In this document: positions 96 to 20,997 of the stretch, in pieces | Numbering within the stretch: position 1 is the first letter of the stretch | How the letters are laid out: every line of letters starts with the position of its first letter | Assembly (NCBI GenBank): GCA_022821875.1 | Contig: JAJECV010000037.1 | Coordinates: 1-32,162, forward strand | DNA length: 32,162 nucleotides | Reading direction: 5' to 3' | Source of the DNA: Rhodothermales bacterium | GTDB taxonomy: Bacteria > Bacteroidota > Rhodothermia > Rhodothermales > Bin80 | Translations under genes and position numbers: made by a program | Notes under the pieces: generated by a model | Databases searched by the model: none | What the model was told of the DNA's origin: nothing | Seen by the model: only the letters and a program-made list of their open reading frames with translations

Positions 96-1373
96 CTAAT
101 GAAACCAAGATGGGTAATTTATTTTTTGGTGAGCCCTAAGATTCTCATTTTTCTGTTCCATCTCACTCCAAGAACTAGTATCTGCTAATCCATCTGTTAA
201 GCCAAAATCGCTTCGTAGCAAAGCATCAATTGACTTTACAATGTAGGATACCACTGGACGAGGGGTGTAGAAGACCCCGCGTTTCACCTTCTTCTCCTTA
301 TCATATTCTGCGAGGAAGTTTTCATAGAAATGAATTACTGGGTCCTCTCTTGGATTTTGGTCTCCAAAATCTCGTACAACCGATTCCATATTGGTATGAT
401 TTAGAAAATCCTCAATCTCAACTATTCCTAATTCGTCAAAATTTATCGCATTTTCCCCTGTACCTATGCTTAGAAAAACAGACATCAATTCGTTCAGGAG
501 CGGGTTCGTGCGCAGATAACGAGTAAAATCATTAGCCGCACTCTGTTTTGGGTTAGTGATACGGGCCGATAGCAACCCATAAGTGATAGTCTGAGCGACC
601 ATGTCTGCAAAACTACTGTGATCAATATCACCAACTAGGGTTTCCTGGAAACTCTTCAGAAGCATGGTTACATAACCGTCTTCTGTTTCTATCTCAAGTG
701 CTTTCTTAATCCGTTCGCGTATCTCTCGGGCGAGTTCAGCTAAGCGAATTGAAAGGTCGCGAGAAGTGTTAACAGTGTGTCTATACTGGACTGTAAAGGC
801 TTTTTTCCATTGTTTACGCCATGCCGCTGCATTATCTGGATTGCTAGGCCAAGTTAAGCATCTCGTTAACTGCTGATTGATGTGCTCCAAATGTAGATGT
901 GTGTCTCTTGAGTCCCAGTCAAGTACCTTGAGCACAGGTGCCCTTTGACTTTCTGGAGCCGGCGTGAAGTGCGCAAAGGTAATTCGCCTTTGTTCATCTT
1001 GGCCATAATTTGAAACAAACAATAAATCTTCAATCTCCCATCTACGCAGTTGTCCTCTGTTGGATAAGGTATGTCTTTTGATTGCAAATCGTCCAAGAAT
1101 ACTCCTCAACGCTAAAACTGGTAGACTTTTAGGTTCAAATTTAACGAAGAAGATCCCCCATGGCTGTTTTGGATGAAATGGTCGAAGACGCTTTATTTCT
1201 TGAATTTTCGCCGCATTCTTCGCATCAATTCCTAATTCATCAAGTCCGTAGTCAAAGGTGCTGTCCTCAAAACTTTCTGTGCTGATTGGCCAGTCCATCT
1301 CATCCCGAAGATATTCGACCAGTGTGTCGAAATCCTGAATTTGAGATAGACGAGCATGTTGATTACGCTTCAT
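96..1373 (-). pseudogene. Truncated adenine-specific DNA methylase of a restriction-modification system (N-terminal part only)
   Basis: The 425-residue product resembles the N-terminal half of large Type ISP/Type IIG-like N6-adenine methylases. Near residues 363-390 it has the GVFYTPRPVVSYIV segment that normally precedes SAM-binding motif I. The expected catalytic domain (an FxGxG-type SAM motif and NPPY) is absent. After about residue 400 the family-like sequence gives way to a short unrelated tail ending at a stop at 96, so the gene was probably cut near positions 96-130. The start is well supported: ATG at 1373 follows a strong AGGTGAGGAG ribosome site (1374-1383) that overlaps the helicase stop codon. 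It is the second gene of an operon with the PLD-SNF2 helicase. The remaining protein could still be a recognition or scaffold part, but methylation activity is not expected. A chimeric assembly could also explain the truncation. Confidence 0.7.
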
Positions 1374-1377
1374 CTCC

Positions 1378-4300
1378 TCACCTATTATTTAATTCCATCC
1401 AGCAACGTAGCCTTGGTTTCACTCCAATCGGGGCATCAACCCGCTTGAGGTAAGTGTTCTTAATACGACGTTCAATCTGTTCTCGTATCTGAATCAATCT
1501 CGTTTGTTCAAGTCTACACTTTCGTGGGGTATCTGGCCTGCTGCGAATATGATTCACAATCTCCTCGGGCTTATCAAGGACTCGTTCACTTTCAAGGTCG
1601 TAGAGATACCAACGAGTGATGCCAGCCTCATCTGTAAATTTGCCCTTCAATTTATCCAGAGCCGGCAGTGTATAGCAGAAAAAAATCTCTGAACCTTGCG
1701 GTGAAATACTCTCTCGTCCGCTAAATACACTTCCAGGAAGCTGCTTTAGTTTCGTCTCAAGTTTTGGATCGGACATAAGCAATTCCTGATACTCTAGCTG
1801 CATTTCCTCAACCGAGGTTTTTGAGCCTTCGTATTCTTCATTGAATTCATTCCAGTTTTTCAATTCGTCGTACTCATCATCGGGATGGAGCAGCTTTTTC
1901 CCCTCAATGCCTAGTGTCTTAGAAATGATCAGGGTTTTCTGTGTGACCTTCTTATATAACGAAAGAAGATCGTCTAATTCATTGGGTGGTAGAAAATTCC
2001 AAAATGCAACCTTGTTACGTGAGTCTGCTAATTCGGGCATGTCGGCCAACATCTTTTTCTCTGTTTCCGGATTCATACGTCGATCCACACGTCCAATTCG
2101 CTGCATCAGACGTACCGGGTTCCAGTGTATATCATAGTTGATTAGCCGGGATGCATCTTGGAGATTCAATCCCTCAGAAAGGACATCCGTAGAAATGAGT
2201 ACTTGGATCTCTTGTAACCCCTGCGATTGCAACTCGGGAACAGACAGACCATTGTAGTAAGGCGAAAATCGTTTAATGACATCTGCACGATTGCGCCCGG
2301 TTGCACTATCTACTTGTTCAACCCCCTCAATACCAGACTTTTGTAACTGCCCCTTTAGATAGCGTGCAGTGTGGGCAAATTCTGTAAAAATAAGCACCTT
2401 CTCATTCCGTAGATCGTCTGAGTTAAGTAAACAAATCAGATGCTGTAACTTATCATCATCCTTTGAATCAAATTTCCGGGCCTCGTTAAGGAATAGTACA
2501 ATCTGATCAAGGTCTTGGAAAATCTCGGACATCATTTCGTCCACCTTGTATTCCATTCGGCTAAGCTTTTCAACTTTATCAAGCATTTCGTGAGGGACGA
2601 TATCCTCATCGTCCTGTTCATCGTCAACCTCAAGTTGCGACTGACGTGAAATCGCATAGGTTAAGGCTTCTTTGTTGCTAATTTTCCATTGTTTGAGTTG
2701 CGACCGTTCAATTTCGGTTTCGCTGTGGACATCCAAAAATGCCAATAGCTTTAAGAGTAGTCGGATACAGGAAAGTTCGAAGGATGCCACAGAACTTTCA
2801 AACCTTTTGAGGAAATTCGTCCGAATCAATCCTACGACCTGCCTTTGACGATTCTCTTCAAAGGCATCAATATTTTTGTCATCTCCTATGTACCAGTGTA
2901 GAGGATAGTACAGGGCCAGCGTAAAGAGTGGATTTTCTTTTGCAAAGGCAATTTCAAGAATATCCAGCATTCCTCCATAAGTCTTGCGAATGGAGTAATC
3001 TGCGACTTGCGGTGGCAGCCTTTCAGGGAATATGGCAGCGGTTTTGTGTTCGCGCATTTGGCTTTCGCGGGCGTACGCTCGACTTCGCTGCACTACAAGT
3101 TGGCGAAAAATCTCTTGACTGCCTAGGATCTCCTGAGCATCGGCTAAGTGATCGGCTACGTCAACGCCATGCTGATGAACACGATCACGTAACTTCCTTT
3201 CCATTTGGTTAAAGTGGCCTCTTAGATGATTTACTCCGATAGTCTGGGCGAAATAGTTTTCATTTTTTCGAGTAAACAATTCCATCATATGCCGAAAATC
3301 ACTCAAGCGGTTATTAATTGGTGTTGCCGTTAACAGAAAGACCATTTTTTGGTGAATGGTATCATCCAGTAGATCAAATAAGCGATAATATCTGGATGGA
3401 CTCTTACCCGTATTATCATCTCCAGGAGTACCAGGATTGCGAAAGTAATGTGCCTCGTCAATGATTACTACATCTGCGAGATCTGCAATACGTTTGAATC
3501 GTTCCAGAAAATCTCCTCTTCGTCCAAGATCTGTGTGATTGAATACGGCAAGGTTACTGAAGTCCTCGCTGCCTCCAATGCCACCAATATGATTGAGATA
3601 TTTTTTCAGACTTGGCTCCCAGACACCTTCCCTTACCGCCTTAGGAGCAAACAAAACAACTCGTTTACGTTCATGTAGGGTCAATCTCTCGATCAGCATG
3701 AGACCTACAAAGGTTTTGCCAAGCCCCACTCCGTCACAAAGAAATGCTCCTCCGTGCTGGCGGGCTATTCTCATAAGCGTCCAGTACGCTTCTTTCTGAT
3801 AGCGATCCAATATCTTGAAGATTACAGATCTCGTCTCATCCCATTCGGTTGCAGTTAACTCGTGACCACGAAAGAACTCCTGCAATGCCTTTGCATAGAT
3901 TTCAAATGGTGCATATTCGTGGGTGTGTCGCTGGATCGTCTGAACGACAGTATCTGTTACATCTACTGCATCCTCCCAATACTCGTCAAACCATTCTTGA
4001 AGCTGTGCAACCTCTCGTGCACTCTGAATCTGGACGTTCAATTCAATATTCTGTGTAAGCCCTGGGCGTGTGAAATTACTAGAGCCCACAAGTGCCTGAG
4101 CACCAACTACTTCCATTCTGGCGTGTGTGATATAGGCTTTTGCGTGAAATTTTTCCCTGTTATATATGCGGCACTCAATTCTACCGGTGCGTAATGCATG
4201 AAGGATACCAGCTACTCCCCGCAGGAAAGGATTCAGATCTTTTTCTTCCTCAATTCTGTTCTCTAACTCATCGAGAGCCCGCTTACGTACTGCTTCAAGG

Positions 4301-4545
4301 ATTGCCTGCCGGGTGCGCTCAGTAGTTTCCGATCCCATGAGGATTCGGATCCTATCAAGTTTCTGCCAACTACCATCTAATGCCAGGAGTGCACCAATTT
4401 CAAAGTATCCTGTTGCAATGTCGAAAGATTTAGCAATAGTAGACCATTCCGAAAGGTAGCGTAGTCCAGTCCATCCTTCTATGCTGTTGTCAACAATAAA
4501 AAGTTCATGACCCTGACGACTGCGAGACGATTTACCCATGGCCAT
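1378..4545 (-). CDS. PLD-nuclease/SNF2-family helicase, restriction or defence component
   Basis: The 1055-residue protein has two parts. The N-terminal ~190 residues form a phospholipase-D-type nuclease domain with one HxK motif (His134, Lys136) followed by GSSNFT (about 154-159). Such domains usually act as dimers. The rest is an SF2/SNF2 helicase: DGVGLGKT Walker A at about 271-278, DEAH at about 363-366, LLTATP at about 414-419, and a C-terminal lobe with STDVLSEGLNLQ and QRIGRVDR. The expected role is ATP-driven movement on DNA coupled to cleavage in a restriction or anti-phage complex. It is the first gene of an operon with the truncated methylase and is divergent from the Res-type gene. 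PLD and SNF2 proteins also occur separately in DISARM (DrmC, DrmD), but drmA and drmB are not visible here, so I do not call DISARM. Two Met codons (4545, 4539) are possible starts. Confidence 0.8.
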   Translation of the reverse strand: MAMGKSSRSRQGHELFIVDNSIEGWTGLRYLSEWSTIAKSFDIATGYFEIGALLALDGSWQKLDRIRILMGSETTERTRQAILEAVRKRALDELENRIEEEKDLNPFLRGVAGILHALRTGRIECRIYNREKFHAKAYITHARMEVVGAQALVGSSNFTRPGLTQNIELNVQIQSAREVAQLQEWFDEYWEDAVDVTDTVVQTIQRHTHEYAPFEIYAKALQEFFRGHELTATEWDETRSVIFKILDRYQKEAYWTLMRIARQHGGAFLCDGVGLGKTFVGLMLIERLTLHERKRVVLFAPKAVREGVWEPSLKKYLNHIGGIGGSEDFSNLAVFNHTDLGRRGDFLERFKRIADLADVVIIDEAHYFRNPGTPGDDNTGKSPSRYYRLFDLLDDTIHQKMVFLLTATPINNRLSDFRHMMELFTRKNENYFAQTIGVNHLRGHFNQMERKLRDRVHQHGVDVADHLADAQEILGSQEIFRQLVVQRSRAYARESQMREHKTAAIFPERLPPQVADYSIRKTYGGMLDILEIAFAKENPLFTLALYYPLHWYIGDDKNIDAFEENRQRQVVGLIRTNFLKRFESSVASFELSCIRLLLKLLAFLDVHSETEIERSQLKQWKISNKEALTYAISRQSQLEVDDEQDDEDIVPHEMLDKVEKLSRMEYKVDEMMSEIFQDLDQIVLFLNEARKFDSKDDDKLQHLICLLNSDDLRNEKVLIFTEFAHTARYLKGQLQKSGIEGVEQVDSATGRNRADVIKRFSPYYNGLSVPELQSQGLQEIQVLISTDVLSEGLNLQDASRLINYDIHWNPVRLMQRIGRVDRRMNPETEKKMLADMPELADSRNKVAFWNFLPPNELDDLLSLYKKVTQKTLIISKTLGIEGKKLLHPDDEYDELKNWNEFNEEYEGSKTSVEEMQLEYQELLMSDPKLETKLKQLPGSVFSGRESISPQGSEIFFCYTLPALDKLKGKFTDEAGITRWYLYDLESERVLDKPEEIVNHIRSRPDTPRKCRLEQTRLIQIREQIERRIKNTYLKRVDAPIGVKPRLRCWMELNNR

Positions 4546-4848
4546 TAAACCTCAGTATACCACACACGAATGCTCTACAAGGTACATGTTGTAGTTCAGG
4601 CAGATATGAAATCACTCGCATAAGATTGCTTATCATATATTTGAGGAGATACGCAGCGGTACTGCGAGACTTATTGGCTAAAACTTGTTTACTTTACTCC
4701 CAATGCGATTATCTGAAGATGTAAAGGTGATCCTGCTTCTGACGGCAGATTGGAGTAAGGATAACCGTCCAAATATAAGCTTTTGACCTCTTATGAATGG
4801 CATCGGAACAGGTTGCACATCAATCGAACACATAGATTGCGGAAGAAC
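4546..4848. promoter_or_regulatory. Divergent intergenic region between helicase and Res-type gene
   Basis: These 303 bases separate two divergent defence genes and must hold both promoters. A TATATTTG at 4636-4643 matches the Bacteroidota -7 pattern TAnnTTTG for the rightward gene, but no TTTG stands at the usual distance upstream, so it is weak. A GGAAG just before ATG 4849 is a plausible ribosome site. I see no gene here. Confidence 0.35.
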
Positions 4849-7404
4849 ATGATTTTGAAGGATTATCAAAAGCGAACCCTGACCACGGTTACTCACTTTC
4901 TTCGGAGTTTAACACAGGCCAAGGAGGATGACCGTCAGGCCAGAATTCGTGATCCTGAAAGGAGCCTCAACTGGGCAGAGATGGCTTGGGAAAAAATCTT
5001 GCCCATGAAGAAGTACAACAATCGCCTCAATGGATTGGGGGAATGTCTTCCTTCCTTTTGTCTTAAAATCCCGACCGGCGGCGGCAAAACGTTGATTGCA
5101 ACTCGAGTGATTGATCTTGTGAACGCACATTTTCGGTATAGTCGGCGTGGCTTAGTGCTTTGGATTGTGCCCACGAGCCAGATCTACAGGCAAACTCTCA
5201 AAGCACTCAAAGACAAAGATCATCCCTATCGTCAGCAACTTGATTTGTCATCAGGGCAACGTACTCGTATTTTCGAGAAAACTTCGTCTTTTAGCCCGCA
5301 GGATGTGGTAGAAAACCTCTGTATCCTCCTGTTGATGCTTCCTTCGGCCAATCGTGGACTTACTCAAAGGGACAAGCTAAGAATATATCGGGACAGTGGG
5401 GCATTTGATCAATTCTTCCCTGACTCTGGTGATCCATCAGCACATGAAAAACTGCTGAAGCATTTCCCGAACCTTGACACCTTTGAAGGATATGCAGGAT
5501 TTGGTGGTCGGTTGATTAAAACTTCTCTTGGAAATACCATACGCCTTTTGAAGCCGTTGATTATTCTCGACGAAGGGCATAAAGCGTACAGCGCCAATGC
5601 AAAAAGAACACTGGAGGGCTTTAATCCCTGTATGGTCGTAGAACTCTCTGCCACTCCAGACAAACTCTCAAATGTTCTGGTTGAGATCCAAGGTGTAGAA
5701 CTTAACGCTGAGGAAATGGTCAAGCTTGACCTTCACATTCGTAATAAAGAAGGTAGGGACTGGCGTGACACGCTATTGGAATCCATCCAACATCGTGAAA
5801 TTCTTGAATCGGAGGCACGGCGTTACGAAGCAGAGTCGGGGATCTATATTCGACCTGTCTGTGTGATACAGGTGGAGAGAACGGGGCGTGGACAGAGAAA
5901 ACCAGAGTATATCCATACGGAGGATGTACGAGAATATTTACTGTGGTGCGATGGAATTCAATTGGAGCATATAGCGGTTAAAACAAGTGAGAAGGATGAG
6001 CTCAAAGAGATGGATGAAATAGGTGGATTGATGTCTCGAAATTGCCCGATCCGCTTCATTATCACCAAGCAGGCATTGCAGGAAGGTTGGGATTGTTCGT
6101 TTGCTTATATCTTAACGATTCTCACGAATCCAATGTCTCGTACAAGCCTAACCCAGCTTGTAGGCCGGATCCTGCGTCAACCCTATGCACACAAGACTGG
6201 CAATCCTTGGCTGGATGAGAGTTATGTCTTCTGTTTTAATCGCCGTGCAAAAGACATTCTGCATGAAGTTAGGAAAGGTTTTGGGCTTGAGGGATTACAG
6301 GATTTGGAAGCGAGAATTGTGGCAGATGAGGATATGGTCAAACCCACGAAAAGGCTAAAAACCCGTCAAGGGAGTCATTATTGTACGGAAATCCGTAATC
6401 GGCTGCTTCCCGCTTTTATGATTCAAGATAGTGTCGGATGGAGACTTGCTCAATACGAGACGGATATTCTTTCACGGTTGCCATGGCAAGAAATTGATAT
6501 CTCAACACTCAGCACCCTGAATTTCAGCGAAAGGACATCAGGGAATGTCGTGTTACGTACGAATCTGGATAAGCTAGTACGGATTGAGAATGTAGTAGAT
6601 TCTGAGGATGGCCATGTCATTGATTACGGAACCGCAACGATTCATATTCTTGATTTGGTCCCCAATCCTTGGCATGGGTATCATTTGGTCGAGCGGACTT
6701 TCGAGGCACTACTTGAGCATCATCCATTTGAATATGTGGTAGCCAATTATGTCTTTGTCCTAGAACAGCTTCGTGATGTCCTAGAGCAAGAATGTGACCG
6801 CTTGTCTCGGATGGTTTTTGATTCCCTTATTGAGTCGGATACGATTCGATTTCTTGTTGTTGCGGAGGAGCTGGACTTCCATCGCCCGCCGGATGAAATT
6901 AGTATTCCGAAGGTGAAGCGAATGGGCCTGAAGGACAGCAATCCGAATCAACTGAGTCCATTTAATGCAATTCCAGAAGATGACTTGAACAAATCGGAGA
7001 ATAAGGTCGCTACCTATTTGGATCAGCAGGCGCGAATGTTTTTCTGGTACAGTAACCAACATCGCAAGGGCTACTTCACGCAGGGATGGAGACCTAGCCG
7101 GATCTATAAAGATTTTACTGCAACATTGAAAGACGAAGAATTGGTGAGCAAGGATGAATCCCATGAAGTGTTTGTGCTGGAAACGAAAGGGCTTTATCTG
7201 GATAGGTCGGAGGATCCTGATCCCGAACGTTCAGTATTTGATATTTGCAGTGAGCATACTCAGAAGGCAGACTGGGGCAGATTCGCTCCATCAATGTGCA
7301 GAGGGGGAGTTCGCTTTGAGATTGTAGATAAAGAAAAATGGGAGGCATGTTTGAATGAAATGCTCTTTTCCGATGCCCCCAATCCTGAAACGAAATACGA
7401 GTGA
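4849..7404 (+). CDS. Type III Res-like DEAD/DEAH helicase with C-terminal PD-(D/E)XK nuclease
   Basis: The 851-residue protein has the layout of the restriction subunit of Type III-like enzymes. Visible parts, numbered from ATG 4849, are Walker A PTGGGKT at about 75-81, DEGH at 241-244, LSATP soon after, and a motif VI region LVGRILRQPYAHKTGNP. The C-terminal nuclease has a likely PD-(D/E)XK core with Asp755 and Glu778-Thr-Lys780 (VLETKG). It may belong to the family NCBI calls BPTD_3080 restriction endonucleases; this is from memory. ATG 4849 is preferred over an upstream start at 4783 because GGAAG lies just before it and the sequence from MILKDYQ is family-like. It is divergent from the PLD-SNF2 helicase operon, which suggests one system. 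No intact methylase is visible in the window to protect host DNA. Confidence 0.85.
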   Translation: MILKDYQKRTLTTVTHFLRSLTQAKEDDRQARIRDPERSLNWAEMAWEKILPMKKYNNRLNGLGECLPSFCLKIPTGGGKTLIATRVIDLVNAHFRYSRRGLVLWIVPTSQIYRQTLKALKDKDHPYRQQLDLSSGQRTRIFEKTSSFSPQDVVENLCILLLMLPSANRGLTQRDKLRIYRDSGAFDQFFPDSGDPSAHEKLLKHFPNLDTFEGYAGFGGRLIKTSLGNTIRLLKPLIILDEGHKAYSANAKRTLEGFNPCMVVELSATPDKLSNVLVEIQGVELNAEEMVKLDLHIRNKEGRDWRDTLLESIQHREILESEARRYEAESGIYIRPVCVIQVERTGRGQRKPEYIHTEDVREYLLWCDGIQLEHIAVKTSEKDELKEMDEIGGLMSRNCPIRFIITKQALQEGWDCSFAYILTILTNPMSRTSLTQLVGRILRQPYAHKTGNPWLDESYVFCFNRRAKDILHEVRKGFGLEGLQDLEARIVADEDMVKPTKRLKTRQGSHYCTEIRNRLLPAFMIQDSVGWRLAQYETDILSRLPWQEIDISTLSTLNFSERTSGNVVLRTNLDKLVRIENVVDSEDGHVIDYGTATIHILDLVPNPWHGYHLVERTFEALLEHHPFEYVVANYVFVLEQLRDVLEQECDRLSRMVFDSLIESDTIRFLVVAEELDFHRPPDEISIPKVKRMGLKDSNPNQLSPFNAIPEDDLNKSENKVATYLDQQARMFFWYSNQHRKGYFTQGWRPSRIYKDFTATLKDEELVSKDESHEVFVLETKGLYLDRSEDPDPERSVFDICSEHTQKADWGRFAPSMCRGGVRFEIVDKEKWEACLNEMLFSDAPNPETKYE

Positions 7405-7797
7405 CAAAACGCTATGTATAATCTCATGCTATATATTTGAAGTCTGCTGAAACGTGATCAGATATATTGCAGGGTACTCAAGGGCTGAAATCAATGTTCT
7501 TCAGGAACGGCTACACTCTCACCAGACTTCTGGCGGTGTTTCTGTCTGTTGCAAAAGCGGAATCTACCTTTTCAGATCGAGCGGTAGTATCGTTGTCTGA
7601 TGCAATACACACGGGAGGATGTACATCCAACTGAGGCAAGTGATCGACAAGCCATATTGTAGGACACCTACGGATGACTAGAAGTATCTGGCGAAAAAAA
7701 AACCATCAATTTCACACACGGTCCCACACGGCTACTGATGATCCTATCCGTAAACCTTAATAAGTACTCCTTTGGGATTGATGGTCGTATACCTGCA
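7405..7797. other. Gene-free stretch after the Res-type gene
   Basis: This 393-base stretch contains no convincing gene. Short broken frames are present, for example about 20 codons from an ATG near 7600 that end at a stop, and an A9 run near 7694. They could be remnants of a lost gene but match nothing I recognise. The Res gene terminator should lie here, but I see no clear hairpin with a T run. Confidence 0.4.
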
Positions 7798-8034
7798 CTA
7801 TCCAGCGAAGAAGGTACCGTAGGCAACCATGAGGCTGATGAGTGTGAGGCCAATCCCCAGCATCCAGCGAATAGCGGTCAGTTGGGTGTAGACACGCTCA
7901 ACTACATTTTTTGCTGCCATGTTATAAATCTCATTTGTTGCTTCGTGAGTCTCCTCAGCGGAGACTTTATGTCCCTTGCCAAGTTTTCGCAAGAAGACGA
8001 ATAACTTGTTGGTGTCAGTAGTTGATTCAGACAT
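7798..8034 (-). CDS. Small tail-anchored membrane protein (78 aa)
   Basis: The 78-residue product has a polar, helical N-terminal part with heptad-like spacing (about residues 8-50) and one hydrophobic segment near the C-terminus (about 55-76, WMLGIGLTLISLMVAYGTFF). This shape resembles small coiled-coil plus C-terminal membrane-anchor proteins such as XhlA-like or DUF1640-like proteins. The similarity is of shape only. It is divergent from the double-DprA gene, with starts 82 bases apart, so the two may be co-regulated. In a defence setting a small membrane protein could be the effector that damages or depolarises the membrane, but that is inference. An opposite-strand frame (7738-8004) overlaps it; I prefer this one because of its clean amphipathic plus transmembrane layout. 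Confidence 0.6.
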   Translation of the reverse strand: MSESTTDTNKLFVFLRKLGKGHKVSAEETHEATNEIYNMAAKNVVERVYTQLTAIRWMLGIGLTLISLMVAYGTFFAG

Positions 8035-8052
8035 GAGAAACGATTTGCCTAT

Positions 8053-8058
8053 TATAAT
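8053..8058. promoter_or_regulatory. Possible shared -10 element between divergent genes
   Basis: TATAAT at 8053-8058 sits inside the perfect palindrome ATTATAAT, so it reads as a -10 box on both strands between the small membrane protein and the double-DprA gene. No good -35 box is visible at standard spacing on either strand. Confidence 0.25.
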
Positions 8059-8116
8059 GGGGTGGAGAGATCTTGGTTCCCTTTTTGAGCATTTTCCGGG
8101 ACAGCCCGAAAACTAA

Positions 8117-10183
8117 GTGGGTTACATCGTTAAGCTGGATGGATTTTTAGTAGCCCAACGCAGTACAAAATTCCTTCCTGAGGATATAGACATAAATCCA
8201 AAGGCTTTATCGCTGATGACATTTTCTGACGATGCCAGGGCAATCCTGATTTTGACAGGACATCTCAGAGCGAAGAAAAAATCTCGGGAGCTGGGATTAC
8301 TGAATCCAAAACAGTGGAACCGGCTTCGACTATATCTTGAGCAGATCGGAAAGTCTCCTGGAGATCTGTTTAGGGAGGAAGAAATTCTTCGCCAATGGGC
8401 GGATCAGGACAGGTGGTATCGGTTGGAGGATGCCGAGAAATGCGTAAAACGCCTGCAGCATGGGGCCGCTTTGGCCAATGCCGTAACACAGTGGGCGAAA
8501 TGGAATATTTGGGTCATGACCTATCTGGACCATGATTATCCCTGGAGACTCAAAGAACGATTATCGAACAGATCTGATTTTTCTCCAGTACTCTACGGAG
8601 TAGGAGACCGGTCATTGCTTCAAGATGGCGGGCTTGCCGTAGTGGGTTCACGTAAACCCCCTGCGGAGTTAGAGGCGTATTACCTTGACTATACCCAATC
8701 GTTAGGTGAGGCCGCTGCTGCTGAGGCGGTAACGGTTATTTCCGGCGGTGCCCGGGGAGTGGATACCAAAGCCATGACGGGGGCTCTTGAGAAAAACGGG
8801 AATGCCGTAGGCGTACTGACACATCAACTTCTGGAAAAGTCCAGCAGCCGGATATATCGTGATTCTTTGGAAGGAGGGCAGTTAGCGTTGGTGTCTTTGG
8901 TTGACCCGGAAATCAATTTGTTCAAGGTTGATCGTTACGCTTATGGCTCTGCCGCAATGCAGCGGAACAAGTACATTTACTGCTTATCCGATGCCGCTGT
9001 AGTGATTCGATCTGATAAGAAAGGCGGCACCTGGAGTGGAGCAGTAGAGAACTTGCAGGAGTCCTGGGTTCCGCTTTGGATGAAGAGGGATAGCGAGCAT
9101 GACACCGAAGCAGCAAACAAAATTATTGTAGAAAAAGGTGCAGAATGGTTTCCCGAGGATAAGGATGTAAATGACCATCTCCGATTGTCCCTTAGGCAAA
9201 GAGACATTCGCAGGGTGACCATTTTACTCACAGTCAATTTGAGTAGTGATCAATCCAATCGAGCAGATCCCCTGAATTTTAAGGAATGGGGGCAATTTGC
9301 CAGGGATCTGTTGAATAAAAAGAAAACCCCCGCAGATTTTATCTACGAGCCTTTTAGCCAAGTCCTTGAGGAGGGGGATCAAGGAGGTTTCTCAATCAGA
9401 CGAATTGAGGGACTGCTGAACCCGGATCGAATCAACCGGCTTTCTCAGGAAGAAGAAAGTTGGCGGGATGCAGGAATCTCAATATTAACGAGAGGGGACA
9501 GAAACTATCCACAGACACTGAAGATCAAGCTGCGGCATGACAGCCCCCCTCTGATGTTTGTGGTGGGGAATCTGGAACTGCTTGTTTCCGAACAAAAAAA
9601 AGTTGCCATTCTGGGATTGAGGAAAAATGACGGTAAAACGGATCTGAACTATGCCTATTCGTTCGGTGCTGCACTGGCCCAAAAAGGAGGAGTACTAGTT
9701 TCCACGAATCACAGTAAAATTGAGAAAGAGGCAGTAAAGGGTTCCCTTGAGAGTGATGGGAAATGCATCATTATACTGCCCGGAAGATTTCAGAGACTCT
9801 TATCTAGTGGTGAGTACAGTGAGTACCTGGAGAATCAGCAACTTGTACTTTTATCAATATCTGCACCCCATGCTAAAGTTCATCCGGCATCTAAGCAGGA
9901 CTGCGATATTGCGTGTGCTTTATCAAGTGCGGTGGTTGTTGTACGCTCAGGCAAGGAAGGTATCATCGCAAATTGTGTGAGTAAGTGGCGCAAAAGAGAG
10001 AACCTGCCCATCTGGATTAGAGAGACAGGTGAACCAATACCGGGCAATCAATTGATTTTTGAACGGGGAGGCGGATGCTGGCTGCCAAGTGGAGAAGATG
10101 TAGACACCCATATTCAATACACGGACAGGTCCGTTTCAGAATGGTTGCAGCAGCTTCAGGGTCCATTGTATGCAGGGAAGTGA
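8117..10183 (+). CDS. Tandem double DprA/Smf-like protein
   Basis: The 688-residue protein holds two full DprA/Smf-like modules. DprA binds single-stranded DNA and loads RecA during transformation. Relatives with other partners occur in defence islands. Module 1 (about 35-345) keeps the Rossmann-fold signatures: VGSRKP, SGGARGVDTKAM, and a late NLFKVDRYAYGSAAMQRNKY...LSDAAVVI segment that matches the family's FP-RNR-I-GLSD motif. Module 2 (about 365-688) has the same order, including a DRNYPQTLKIKL lead-in, but its glycine-rich signatures are eroded (VAILGLRKND, GGVLVSTNHSKIEKEAV, CDIACALSSAVVVV). The usual length is about 290-380 residues, so this is a duplication with one apparently degenerate copy. 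The frame opens with GTG 8117 right after an in-frame TAA. ATG 8216 is an alternative start; neither has a clear ribosome site. It follows the helicase/nuclease genes, which suggests a defence role rather than transformation. Confidence 0.8.
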   Translation: MGYIVKLDGFLVAQRSTKFLPEDIDINPKALSLMTFSDDARAILILTGHLRAKKKSRELGLLNPKQWNRLRLYLEQIGKSPGDLFREEEILRQWADQDRWYRLEDAEKCVKRLQHGAALANAVTQWAKWNIWVMTYLDHDYPWRLKERLSNRSDFSPVLYGVGDRSLLQDGGLAVVGSRKPPAELEAYYLDYTQSLGEAAAAEAVTVISGGARGVDTKAMTGALEKNGNAVGVLTHQLLEKSSSRIYRDSLEGGQLALVSLVDPEINLFKVDRYAYGSAAMQRNKYIYCLSDAAVVIRSDKKGGTWSGAVENLQESWVPLWMKRDSEHDTEAANKIIVEKGAEWFPEDKDVNDHLRLSLRQRDIRRVTILLTVNLSSDQSNRADPLNFKEWGQFARDLLNKKKTPADFIYEPFSQVLEEGDQGGFSIRRIEGLLNPDRINRLSQEEESWRDAGISILTRGDRNYPQTLKIKLRHDSPPLMFVVGNLELLVSEQKKVAILGLRKNDGKTDLNYAYSFGAALAQKGGVLVSTNHSKIEKEAVKGSLESDGKCIIILPGRFQRLLSSGEYSEYLENQQLVLLSISAPHAKVHPASKQDCDIACALSSAVVVVRSGKEGIIANCVSKWRKRENLPIWIRETGEPIPGNQLIFERGGGCWLPSGEDVDTHIQYTDRSVSEWLQQLQGPLYAGK

Positions 10184-18678: not shown

Positions 18679-19938
18679 TCATGGGCTTGATTCGTTTTCC
18701 CAGAGCATGCGAATTGGAACGACATACATGTCATCCCCGAAACTTGCACAGGTTTCTCCGTCGTACAGCACGGCACCAAACTTGAATTTGTCAGGGTGGG
18801 CCGCCTTGATTTTTCGCAGCCCTTTGAAGTCGGAGTCAAATATTGTGGCTCCAGCTTTAACCTCAATACCGGCCAACTCAAAGGCACCGCGCTCAAAAAC
18901 CATGTCTACTTCAATTCCATCCCGGTCACGAAAATGATAGAATACATAGGGGTCGCCGGTGGCACTGGCCTGTCTTTTCAATTCCTGATAGACAAATGAT
19001 TCCACAAGTTGTCCAAGCAGGTTACGGTCTTTTAATAGAAACTTGCTGTTTACTCCCATCAGAGCACATGCCAACCCGGTATCTCCCACATGAATTTTGG
19101 GAGTTTTGATCAGCCTCTTCATTCGATTACTGTACCAAGGTGGGATGCGTTCAATCAGAAACTGATGTTCCAATAATGTGAGGTAGTCCAGAACTGTGTT
19201 GCGATTCATCTGCAACTTTGATGCCAGCGAAGAGGCATTGAAGAGTTGGCTAGACAAATTGGCGGTAGCAGCAAGTAGTTTGGGGATCATTTCAAGAGAT
19301 CGGATTTTCGCCAGATCTAGTATATCTTTCTGAACAATATTCGTTACATAGTTGCGGTACCAGGAAGAACGTTTTCGACCAGATGGGTGGTCAAAAACTT
19401 CAGGATAGCCACCGGCCACGATCCGATCAACCAGATTGCCTGCCAGCCGCTTTTTGGAGCGGGTTTTAAAATCACCCGCAAACAGTCGTTCCAGGAACGG
19501 GGTAGACTGTGACTGTTCAATTTCCTGTTGTGATAAGGGATGGAGACGTATGGTCGCCATCCGACCGACAAGTGCATCCGCCAATTCTGGCACAAGGAGC
19601 ATATTCGTTGAACCCGTCAGGATAAACCGACCGGGTTTTCTATTTCGATCCACGGAAAGCTTCAGGATACGGAACAATTCTGGTATGAGTTGAATTTCAT
19701 CAAGTATAACATGATCGGAACAATCACCAATAAACCCTACGGGATCGTTTTGAACCACCGCCCGGGTGTCCGTATCGTCAAAGGTGAAGTAGGAATACCC
19801 TAGTTGTTCCCCCACGCTTTTTGCCAAGGTTGTTTTGCCGCACTGGCGCGGCCCGTGAATTAATGTGACGGGTGAGTCCTCAATTGATTCTGCGAGCAAG
19901 ATTCTTAATTGTCGGGGGATACTCTCTTTTTTGTGCAT
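18679..19938 (-). CDS. AAA ATPase with C-terminal DUF4143 domain
   Basis: The 419-residue product has an N-terminal AAA-type ATPase domain (Walker A HGPRQCGKTT at about 28-37, Walker B HVILDEIQ, sensor LTGSTN) and a C-terminal DUF4143 region. That region ends in EVDMVF...AGIEVKAGA, an Asp plus ExK pattern like that of PD-(D/E)XK nuclease folds. Such ATPases are common, often horizontally transferred, and their role is poorly defined. The start codon lies 7 bases from the first unit of the 23-bp tandem array, so the array occupies the whole position where a promoter and leader would normally be. Any transcript starting upstream would carry array sequence at its 5' end. Confidence 0.85.
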   Translation of the reverse strand: MHKKESIPRQLRILLAESIEDSPVTLIHGPRQCGKTTLAKSVGEQLGYSYFTFDDTDTRAVVQNDPVGFIGDCSDHVILDEIQLIPELFRILKLSVDRNRKPGRFILTGSTNMLLVPELADALVGRMATIRLHPLSQQEIEQSQSTPFLERLFAGDFKTRSKKRLAGNLVDRIVAGGYPEVFDHPSGRKRSSWYRNYVTNIVQKDILDLAKIRSLEMIPKLLAATANLSSQLFNASSLASKLQMNRNTVLDYLTLLEHQFLIERIPPWYSNRMKRLIKTPKIHVGDTGLACALMGVNSKFLLKDRNLLGQLVESFVYQELKRQASATGDPYVFYHFRDRDGIEVDMVFERGAFELAGIEVKAGATIFDSDFKGLRKIKAAHPDKFKFGAVLYDGETCASFGDDMYVVPIRMLWENESSP

Positions 19939-19945
19939 TTGTGCG

Positions 19946-20704
19946 CAGATTGTTCTATAACTCTCCGTCAGATTGTCAGTTACTGCTTCGGCAGATTGTT
20001 CTACAACTCTCCGTCAGATTGTCAGCTACTGCTTCGGCAGATTGTTTCATAACTCTCCGTCAGATTGTCAGTTACTGCCTCGGCAGATTGTTCTACAACT
20101 CTCCGTCAGATTGTCAGCTACTGCTTCGGCAGATTGTTCTATAACTCTCCGTCAGATTGTTCTACAACTCTCCGTCAGATTGTCAGCTACTGCTTCGGCA
20201 GATTATTCTATAACTCTCCGGCAGATTGTCAACTACTGCTCCGGCAGATTGTCAACCATTGCCTCGGCAGATTGTTCTATAACTCTCCGTCAGATTGTCA
20301 GCTACTGCTTTGGCAGATTGTCAACCACTACTTCGGCAGATTGTTCTATAACTCTCCGTCAGATTGTTCTACAACTCTCCGTTAGATTGTCAGCTACTGC
20401 TTCGGCAGATTGTCAACCACTGCTTCGGCAGATTGTTCTATAACTCTCCGTCAGATTGTCAACCACTGCTCCGTCAGATTGTTCTACAACTCTCCGTCAG
20501 ATTGTCAACCACTGCTTCGGCAGATTGTTCTATAACTCTCCGTCAGATTGTCAGCTACTGCTTCGTCAGATTGTCAACCACTGCTCCGGCAGATTGTTCT
20601 ACAACTCTCCGTCAGATTGTCAGCTACTGCTTCGGCAGGTTGTTCTATAACTCTCCGTCAGATTGTCAGCCACTGCTTCGGCAGATTGTCAACCAGCACT
20701 TCGA
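19946..20704. repeat. Tandem array of 33 units of 23 bp
   Basis: The array has exactly 33 units with no insertion or deletion (33 x 23 = 759 bases). Every unit begins with the 8-base core CAGATTGT, with single changes in three units (12, 20, 31). The next 15 bases come in two types. Type T reads TCTAYAACTCTCCGT (15 units: 1, 3, 5, 7, 9, 10, 12, 15, 18, 19, 22, 24, 26, 29, 31). Type C reads CAGCTACTGCTTCGG or CAACCACTGCTYCGG (18 units). The first nine units strictly alternate T and C, and later the order is mixed. There are no unique spacers, so it is not a CRISPR array. Forward frames are partly open because 23 is not a multiple of 3, but there is no ATG. Functions such as protein-binding sites, structured RNA or a neutral satellite are all possible. 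Confidence 0.95.
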
Positions 20705-20997
20705 AATTTCTGGCGATGCTAGAAGAATTTTATGTTCTGTCGTCATAGTGTACCCGTGTATGTCGCACACTTACTTCTTCCAGAACCTGCGTTACTTAGA
20801 CGAATGGGCAGAGACATACGAAGTCCCATCCTTGAAGATCTCGTTATGGATTCAATCTATTCCAGTTTGGGCTTCAATTCCTGAAGATTGTCTGGCATTT
20901 ATTCGGCAATTTTTTACCGAATGTGGAGATTTTTAGTATTTTGCCAGATATCCAGTGGCAGTCAGTAGCCGGATTGCCAGATAGAACTGACTAATGA
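20705..20997. other. Gene-free stretch between array and transporter
   Basis: These 293 bases follow the array. A forward frame continues from the array to a stop at 20934 but has no start outside the repeats and no family match. A 10-base direct repeat TTGCCAGATA at 20941-20950 and 20974-20983, just before the transporter start, could be a regulator-binding pair; this is weak. Confidence 0.35.

Follow-up and report, generated by a model that had tools for sequence, protein, structure and literature searches.

An expanded array of 23-bp direct repeats beside a PDC-S01 ATPase gene in a Rhodothermales bacterium: a probable operator array with counterparts in records of many phyla

What role, if any, does a block of 33 contiguous 23-bp direct repeats play in a bacterial genome? 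Such an array lies at positions 19946..20704 (minus strand, in the orientation of the adjoining gene) of the 32,162-nucleotide stretch of DNA analysed here (hereafter the window), which is one whole contig (JAJECV010000037.1) of the metagenome-assembled genome (MAG) of a Rhodothermales bacterium (GCA_022821875.1; 3.68 Mb in 147 contigs), and the array occurs only once in this genome. An original prediction, made from the letters of the window, had called attention to the exact phasing of the repeats and proposed that their spacing matters, as in binding-site arrays or structured RNA; it missed the main point, which is the link between the array and the adjoining gene. This gene (18679..19938, minus strand) encodes a 419-aa ATPase with the Pfam domains AAA_14 and DUF4143 that matches PDC-S01, a single-gene candidate for phage defence in PADLOC, and a gap of 7 nt (19939..19945, minus strand) separates its start codon from the end of the upstream array. 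Arrays of the same kind precede the genes of relatives labelled as members of many phyla, where the array appears to lie over the promoter of the gene. The array in the window is probably an autoregulatory operator array over the promoter of the ATPase gene, expanded to 33 copies.

The unit-by-unit count gives 33 contiguous 23-mers with no indels, and Tandem Repeats Finder (TRF) recovers the 23-bp array independently, which confirms the predicted phasing; the number 33 is read from a MAG contig, which cannot prove the exact copy number. Position 9 of the unit divides the array into 15 T-type and 18 C-type units, whose consensus sequences differ at nine positions, in keeping with the 9–10 differences originally described. 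In the orientation of the ATPase gene, the C-type unit contains TGACAATCTGCCGAAG and the T-type unit contains GAACAATCTGACGGAG. The sequence CAGATTGT is unchanged in 30 units, with a single change in each of the other three. The two types alternate strictly in units 1–9 and are mixed thereafter, as had been noted before, and the end of unit 33 is degenerate. Mechanical open reading frames of 90–190 aa cross the array on the plus strand.

The protein alignment, run against bacterial and archaeal genomes, yielded 399 confirmed relatives, of which the best 80 were used. Thirteen near loci (L114–L123, L125, L126, and L128), labelled Bacteroidota, Bacteroidetes, Rhodothermaceae, or Rhodothermales and not all known as members of the window's genus, were set aside. 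The remaining 67 loci (50–58% identical) are labelled Proteobacteria, Acidobacteria, Nitrospira, Chloroflexi, Gemmatimonadetes, and others, with the labels taken from record titles, mostly of MAGs, such that single labels may be wrong. Upstream of the gene, TRF reported a period of 23 bp or a multiple thereof at 41 of 79 loci, or 33 of 67 without the near loci, compared with 1/80 downstream and 0/58 far upstream. A motif-free lag test on the last 130 bp before the gene gave a match of 0.467 at lag 23 against a background median of 0.254 (standard deviation 0.018), with further peaks at lags 46 and 69. This test covered 65 distinct loci, as two exact duplicates were dropped that were kept in the counts of cores, start codons, and hexamers (67 loci). 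The 23-bp peak was absent from all three control regions, namely downstream, inside the gene, and far upstream.

The element shared by these arrays is the core TTDCAATYRGMCG, of which CAGATTGT is simply this species' version. Scored with a trained matrix, the core is present within 150 bp upstream of the gene at 67/67 loci (231 matches), compared with one locus on the reverse strand, one in shuffled sequence, and, downstream, four on the forward and two on the reverse strand. Script counts place 2–6 copies at 63 of the 67 loci and a single copy at the other four. Neighbouring cores are spaced by 23 bp in 157 of 175 cases and by 22 bp in 11, which supports the earlier claim that spacing matters. 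Unit length is not freely variable among the relatives, because these two spacings dominate; free variation, which the original prediction had named as a point that would speak against it, was not seen, and a more distant set of relatives peaks at 22 bp. At two loci (L145 and L192), a short array with the same core and orientation is also found just 3' of the gene.

The position of the cores relative to the gene is likewise conserved. At 47 of 67 loci, a gap of 0–2 nt separates the last core from the start codon; elsewhere, the codon lies at least 4 nt away (11 loci), overlaps the core by 1 nt (one locus), or was not found by the script (8/67). Counting units backward from the gene, a TAnnnT hexamer stands at the -10 place in unit -1 at 49/67 loci, compared with 1/63 for unit -2, 8/56 for unit -3, and 5/30 for unit -4. 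The hexamer TT[GT]C[AG]A stands at the -35 place in unit -2 at 51/63 loci, with 8/67, 32/56, and 11/30 for units -1, -3, and -4, respectively. The -35-like and -10-like hexamers are 18 bp apart in these relatives. The predicted transcription start falls on the start codon or no more than about 2 nt from it, which would make the mRNA leaderless. In these relatives, the array thus seems to cover the promoter of its gene and would lie outside the mRNA.

If the array is an operator, which protein reads it? When 16 genomes were searched in full, 51 paired-core matches were obtained; 44 are at loci of the gene, two of them just downstream of it, and a further 3/51 are at ATPase-family paralogs (L194 and L195). 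The other four carry three mismatches each, and L196, the one inspected, has no such gene adjoining; one further match was obtained in the reversed control. The paralogs L194 and L195 belong to another subfamily (GARQVGKTTL), whose upstream 23-bp units are related and alternate; in PADLOC, L194 gave a match to PDC-S01, and L195 was assigned by eye from its reading frame. Distances between arrays correlate with distances between proteins (Mantel r 0.42, 0/999, 63 loci), as expected under joint inheritance. In a comparison of frames of 120 residues or more in flanks reaching up to 3 kb, no neighbour family is common to more than 3 of the 67 loci, and for this reason the ATPase is the likeliest reader of its own array, judging from sequence comparison. 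It is also the simplest reader able to travel with the array, since the array stays with the gene and the two sets of distances correlate.

The predicted protein offers candidate parts for such a role. Its best PADLOC model is PDLC04790 of PDC-S01 (E 1.3e-152, residues 5–415), and all eight relatives run in PADLOC match this model too and have arrays or palindromes upstream. The combination of AAA_14 and DUF4143 corresponds to COG1373. The AlphaFold2 model has a mean pLDDT (predicted local distance difference test) of 91.3. Conservation was judged from an alignment of the window with 50 of 74 loci, with six loci carrying stops or a frameshift left out. In this alignment, the Walker A and Walker B residues of the AAA_14 domain (residues 22–140; 19519..19875, minus strand) are conserved and the motifs intact. 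A winged-helix-like segment (approximately residues 217–284; 19087..19290, minus strand), named by eye from predicted helices and strands, carries N271, R272, R275, K278, and K281, which are invariant or nearly so, and this segment with its conserved basic residues is a candidate DNA reader in the structural model. The C-terminal part of DUF4143 (approximately residues 305–412; 18703..19026, minus strand) has invariant D345 and K361 and a nearly invariant E359, a pattern resembling that of PD-(D/E)XK nucleases.

Closer to the window, the array was followed through 10 genomes of the same genus (G000–G009), comprising the source genome and nine relatives. In a search with the paired-core pattern, nine of the 10 genomes gave a total of 10 array loci, and eight of these loci are within approximately 340 bp of an ATPase-family gene, which is broken in G004:C116 and G001:C57. 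The unit sequence varies by gene, with the 23-bp pitch and the core (about TGACAATCTGCCGA, read along the gene) largely kept, and the arrays beside an ATPase gene have a longer core, CGGCAGATTNTCA, in common. The contig G008:C44 was left out of the array judgement, having just 48 nt of upstream sequence. At 16 of 17 distant paralogs of the genus (30–33% identity), no core was found at the threshold; the exception, G000:C62, has a single core match, and at G003:C54 lag 23 is a weak top lag (0.33).

The gene and array are present at the window's site in three of the 10 genomes (G000, G004, and G006), with 33 units in the window vs. approximately 8 in G004 and 5 in G006, and copy number across the genus ranges from approximately 2 to 33. 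The unequal exchange that the original prediction had proposed for the array is plausible given these differences at one locus. In G002, G003, G005, G007, G008, and G009, the flanking genes align and stand only approximately 90–240 bp apart, and G001 has a different gene next to the transporter. The intergenic stretch from the array to the SNF-type transporter gene (20705..20997, no strand assigned) is alignable with G004 and partly with G006, and was not found between the flanking genes of the six other members. The exact insertion boundaries could not be placed, as the sequence flanking the empty sites has diverged too far. No target-site duplication is readable.

More distant relatives carry a related arrangement with a different pitch. 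Eleven records (10 plasmids and the viral contig L198; 38.7–43.0% identical), picked by eye from 18, gave a pooled peak of 0.409 at lag 22 (median 0.248; lag 23 just 0.284), with lag 22 ranking first in 7/11 and second in 4/11. The plasmid records examined were 15 of 226. The 22-bp set (L201–L206, L208, L209, L214, L215, and L198) consists mostly of Alphaproteobacteria plasmids. In other relatives, a different element takes the place of the array: a significant palindrome ends 0–5 nt before the ATG in 6 of 20 (15 genus paralogs and 5 plasmid records), the other 14 being without one by the same test (200 shuffles), and none was found in the first 30 loci of the array clade (50 shuffles). These palindromes suggest that some other branches of the family have an operator-like element of another kind in this position. 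The long palindromes stand upstream of the DUF4143 genes of L065, L072, L092, L093, L207, and L213. At 41% identity, the Azotobacter copy L207 is as close as the 22-bp set and has the palindrome and no array, the Thioclava copy L211 (35%) has top lags of 46 and 23 and no core match, and in the T. thermophilus copy L210 (38%) neither an array nor a palindrome was found. Protein alignment against viral contigs identified three relatives, of which L198 (41%) has the 22-bp array and the other two (28–29%) are without a clear one, with a single core match at L199. The window's exact three-unit pattern gave no matches in viral contigs.

The observations can be combined in an autoregulatory scheme. 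Each 23-bp unit would supply one copy of the core (TTDCAATYRGMCG in the wider family), and, in relatives, the two gene-proximal units would double as the promoter, with the -35-like hexamer in unit -2 and the -10-like hexamer in unit -1. The ATPase would most likely bind cooperatively to the regularly spaced units of its own array and repress itself, which would hold a potentially harmful nuclease at a low level until something, presumably infection, displaces the ATPase from the array. The surplus copies in this lineage, with 33 units in the window, would sharpen or buffer the response, or may be partly a neutral expansion.

Several observations weigh against this scheme. The promoter hexamers were scored in relatives outside the window's lineage and not in the lineage itself, and the -35-like hexamer is less telling than the -10-like one, since it is also common in unit -3 (32/56). 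Counting of the core used the very loci that had served to train its matrix, a circularity that does not affect the lag test or TRF. Most of the 22-bp set have a similar core in, as judged by eye, a different promoter register. Within the genus, no clear array was found upstream of the close paralog G002:C144, and G005:C100 has degenerate units only. Two of the 10 genus array loci are without an adjoining ATPase gene, namely G003:C60 and G007:C91. The former (L087; G003:C60:22450-22619) consists of approximately 8 units around a run of N and the latter (L088; G007:C91:9422) of 2 units, and both adjoin a gene that resembles, by eye, a SusC/TonB receptor. No convincing relic of an ATPase gene was found near either array; the best candidate (E 0.003 over 43 residues) is approximately 2.4 kb from L087. 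The structural comparison also stands against a firm conclusion on DNA reading by the ATPase, as the best solved matches are archaeal AAA+ and STAND-type ATPases: 2qen (Z 16.3, root-mean-square deviation (rmsd) 4.3, 252 aligned), 2fna (Z 15.3, rmsd 4.3, 255 aligned), and the plant NLR RPP1 (Z 14.1, rmsd 5.1, 246 aligned). The winged helix of archaeal AAA+ and STAND-type ATPases need not touch DNA. The matches span mainly residues 1–311, and the C-terminal part is barely covered. Finally, the reader may instead be a co-transferred protein encoded elsewhere.

Among the alternatives, the one that survives best, while still being unlikely, is that the array serves as a loading or assembly platform along which the ATPase polymerises on sites 22 or 23 bp apart, with an effector, self-recognition, or mobility role (e.g., as a store of nuclease or a mobile-unit end) and the promoter overlap being secondary. 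The near-constant period of 23 or 22 bp suggests contacts between neighbours, and up to 33 copies is more than repression seems to need. The presence of gene and array at the site in three of 10 genus genomes and their absence in others, together with the relatives in records of many phyla and on plasmids, would also suit this reading. Against a platform stand the small copy numbers outside the lineage (2–6 in 63 of 67 relatives and one in four), the restriction of 3'-side core copies to few loci, and the absence of a readable target-site duplication. A speculative reading that we consider rather improbable joins the two ideas: the ATPases of a large PDC-S01 clade would assemble into regular filaments, each along its own array with sites 22 or 23 bp apart, and this array would act both as a promoter switch and as a store or sensor, with the nuclease held inactive, its amount set by copy number, and its release following when infection disturbs the array or its transcription.

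Less probable still is that the array, as an operator, serves not the ATPase but a regulator whose gene lies elsewhere in the host. There are small repressors, dedicated to defence genes, that read direct-repeat operators, as described for RptR (PMC12255303), and the tie between ATPase and array is drawn from sequence comparison. On the other hand, the core is conserved across phyla and the neighbouring genes are not, and 47 of the 51 paired-core matches in 16 genomes are at the ATPase gene or its paralogs.

A functionless tandem satellite, or a product of assembly, is very unlikely. The copy number does differ strongly among close relatives, and the two arrays without an adjoining gene could be expansions of this kind. 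For the class of arrays as a whole, such an origin is contradicted by the conservation of core, period, strand, and start-codon position outside the lineage (67/67 loci with the core; 47/67 within 0–2 nt), and the exact number of 33 could nevertheless be neutral. The structured or small RNA suggested in the original prediction, which a constant period and length alone would permit, is hardly credible: the window has no Rfam match at gathering score, folding is no better than that of shuffled sequences on either strand (z +2.07 and +0.96; 20 shuffles per strand), and the inferred promoter lies within the array, with transcription predicted to start downstream of it. A derivation from transposon ends can practically be dismissed, for although the 23-bp terminal repeats of apparent insertion elements in this genome, which start with CAGATTGA, have the period of the array and a 7-mer in common with it, one copy of this type is near a gene with DruA and transposase domains and the genus arrays have the longer core CGGCAGATTNTCA beside an ATPase gene. 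In a direct comparison, CAGATTGA-type units match the array in CAGATTG only and stand at the ends of apparent elements, and identity with them was rejected.

Other repeats and genes were recorded alongside the array. In the source genome (G000), the CAGATTGA repeats are located inside the ends of the apparent insertion element (L030–L040), often near contig ends, and near one copy (L036:5611-7926) is a gene with DruA, Tnp_DNA_bind, and DDE transposase domains. The window also encodes a defence-like gene cluster (96-10183), comprising part of a Type IIG-like methyltransferase, an HKD and Snf2 helicase, a Type III restriction-like helicase, and a PsyrA/DprA-like protein. At the contig end (31239-32161), TRF identified 3.2 copies of a tandem 288-bp unit.

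How does the array compare with known systems? PDC-S01, which the window gene matches over its length through PDLC04790, is described as ranking fourth in frequency among the defence systems of prokaryotes, most candidates of this kind still awaiting validation, and the available part of that source makes no mention of an upstream array (PMC12988326). No description of an upstream array for this family was found in the open-licence PMC literature, in a search that did not cover every wording. A near-constant-period array tied to one gene in records from many phyla provides a concrete DNA ligand and promoter for addressing binding, regulation, and trigger, and the puzzling satellite-like array of the window becomes the extreme form of a regular element beside that gene. 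CRISPR arrays likewise consist of many regular direct repeats, whereas the units here are contiguous and have no spacers, in agreement with the original prediction that this is not a CRISPR. Plasmid iterons and partition-site arrays are direct repeats of approximately 20 bp beside the gene for their reader. In contrast to these, the domains of the window gene are not those of a replication or partition gene, and in relatives the array overlaps a predicted leaderless promoter. By analogy, the nearest worked example is RptR, a different protein with different sites. It is a dedicated autorepressor and recognises three direct repeats within a defence-island promoter (PMC12255303). The likeness lies in several direct repeats that overlap the promoter of a defence locus. 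RptR is a small helical regulator of 9-bp repeats around TAGCTA, whereas the gene that travels with the array described here encodes an ATPase, and its units are 23 bp long and number up to 33.
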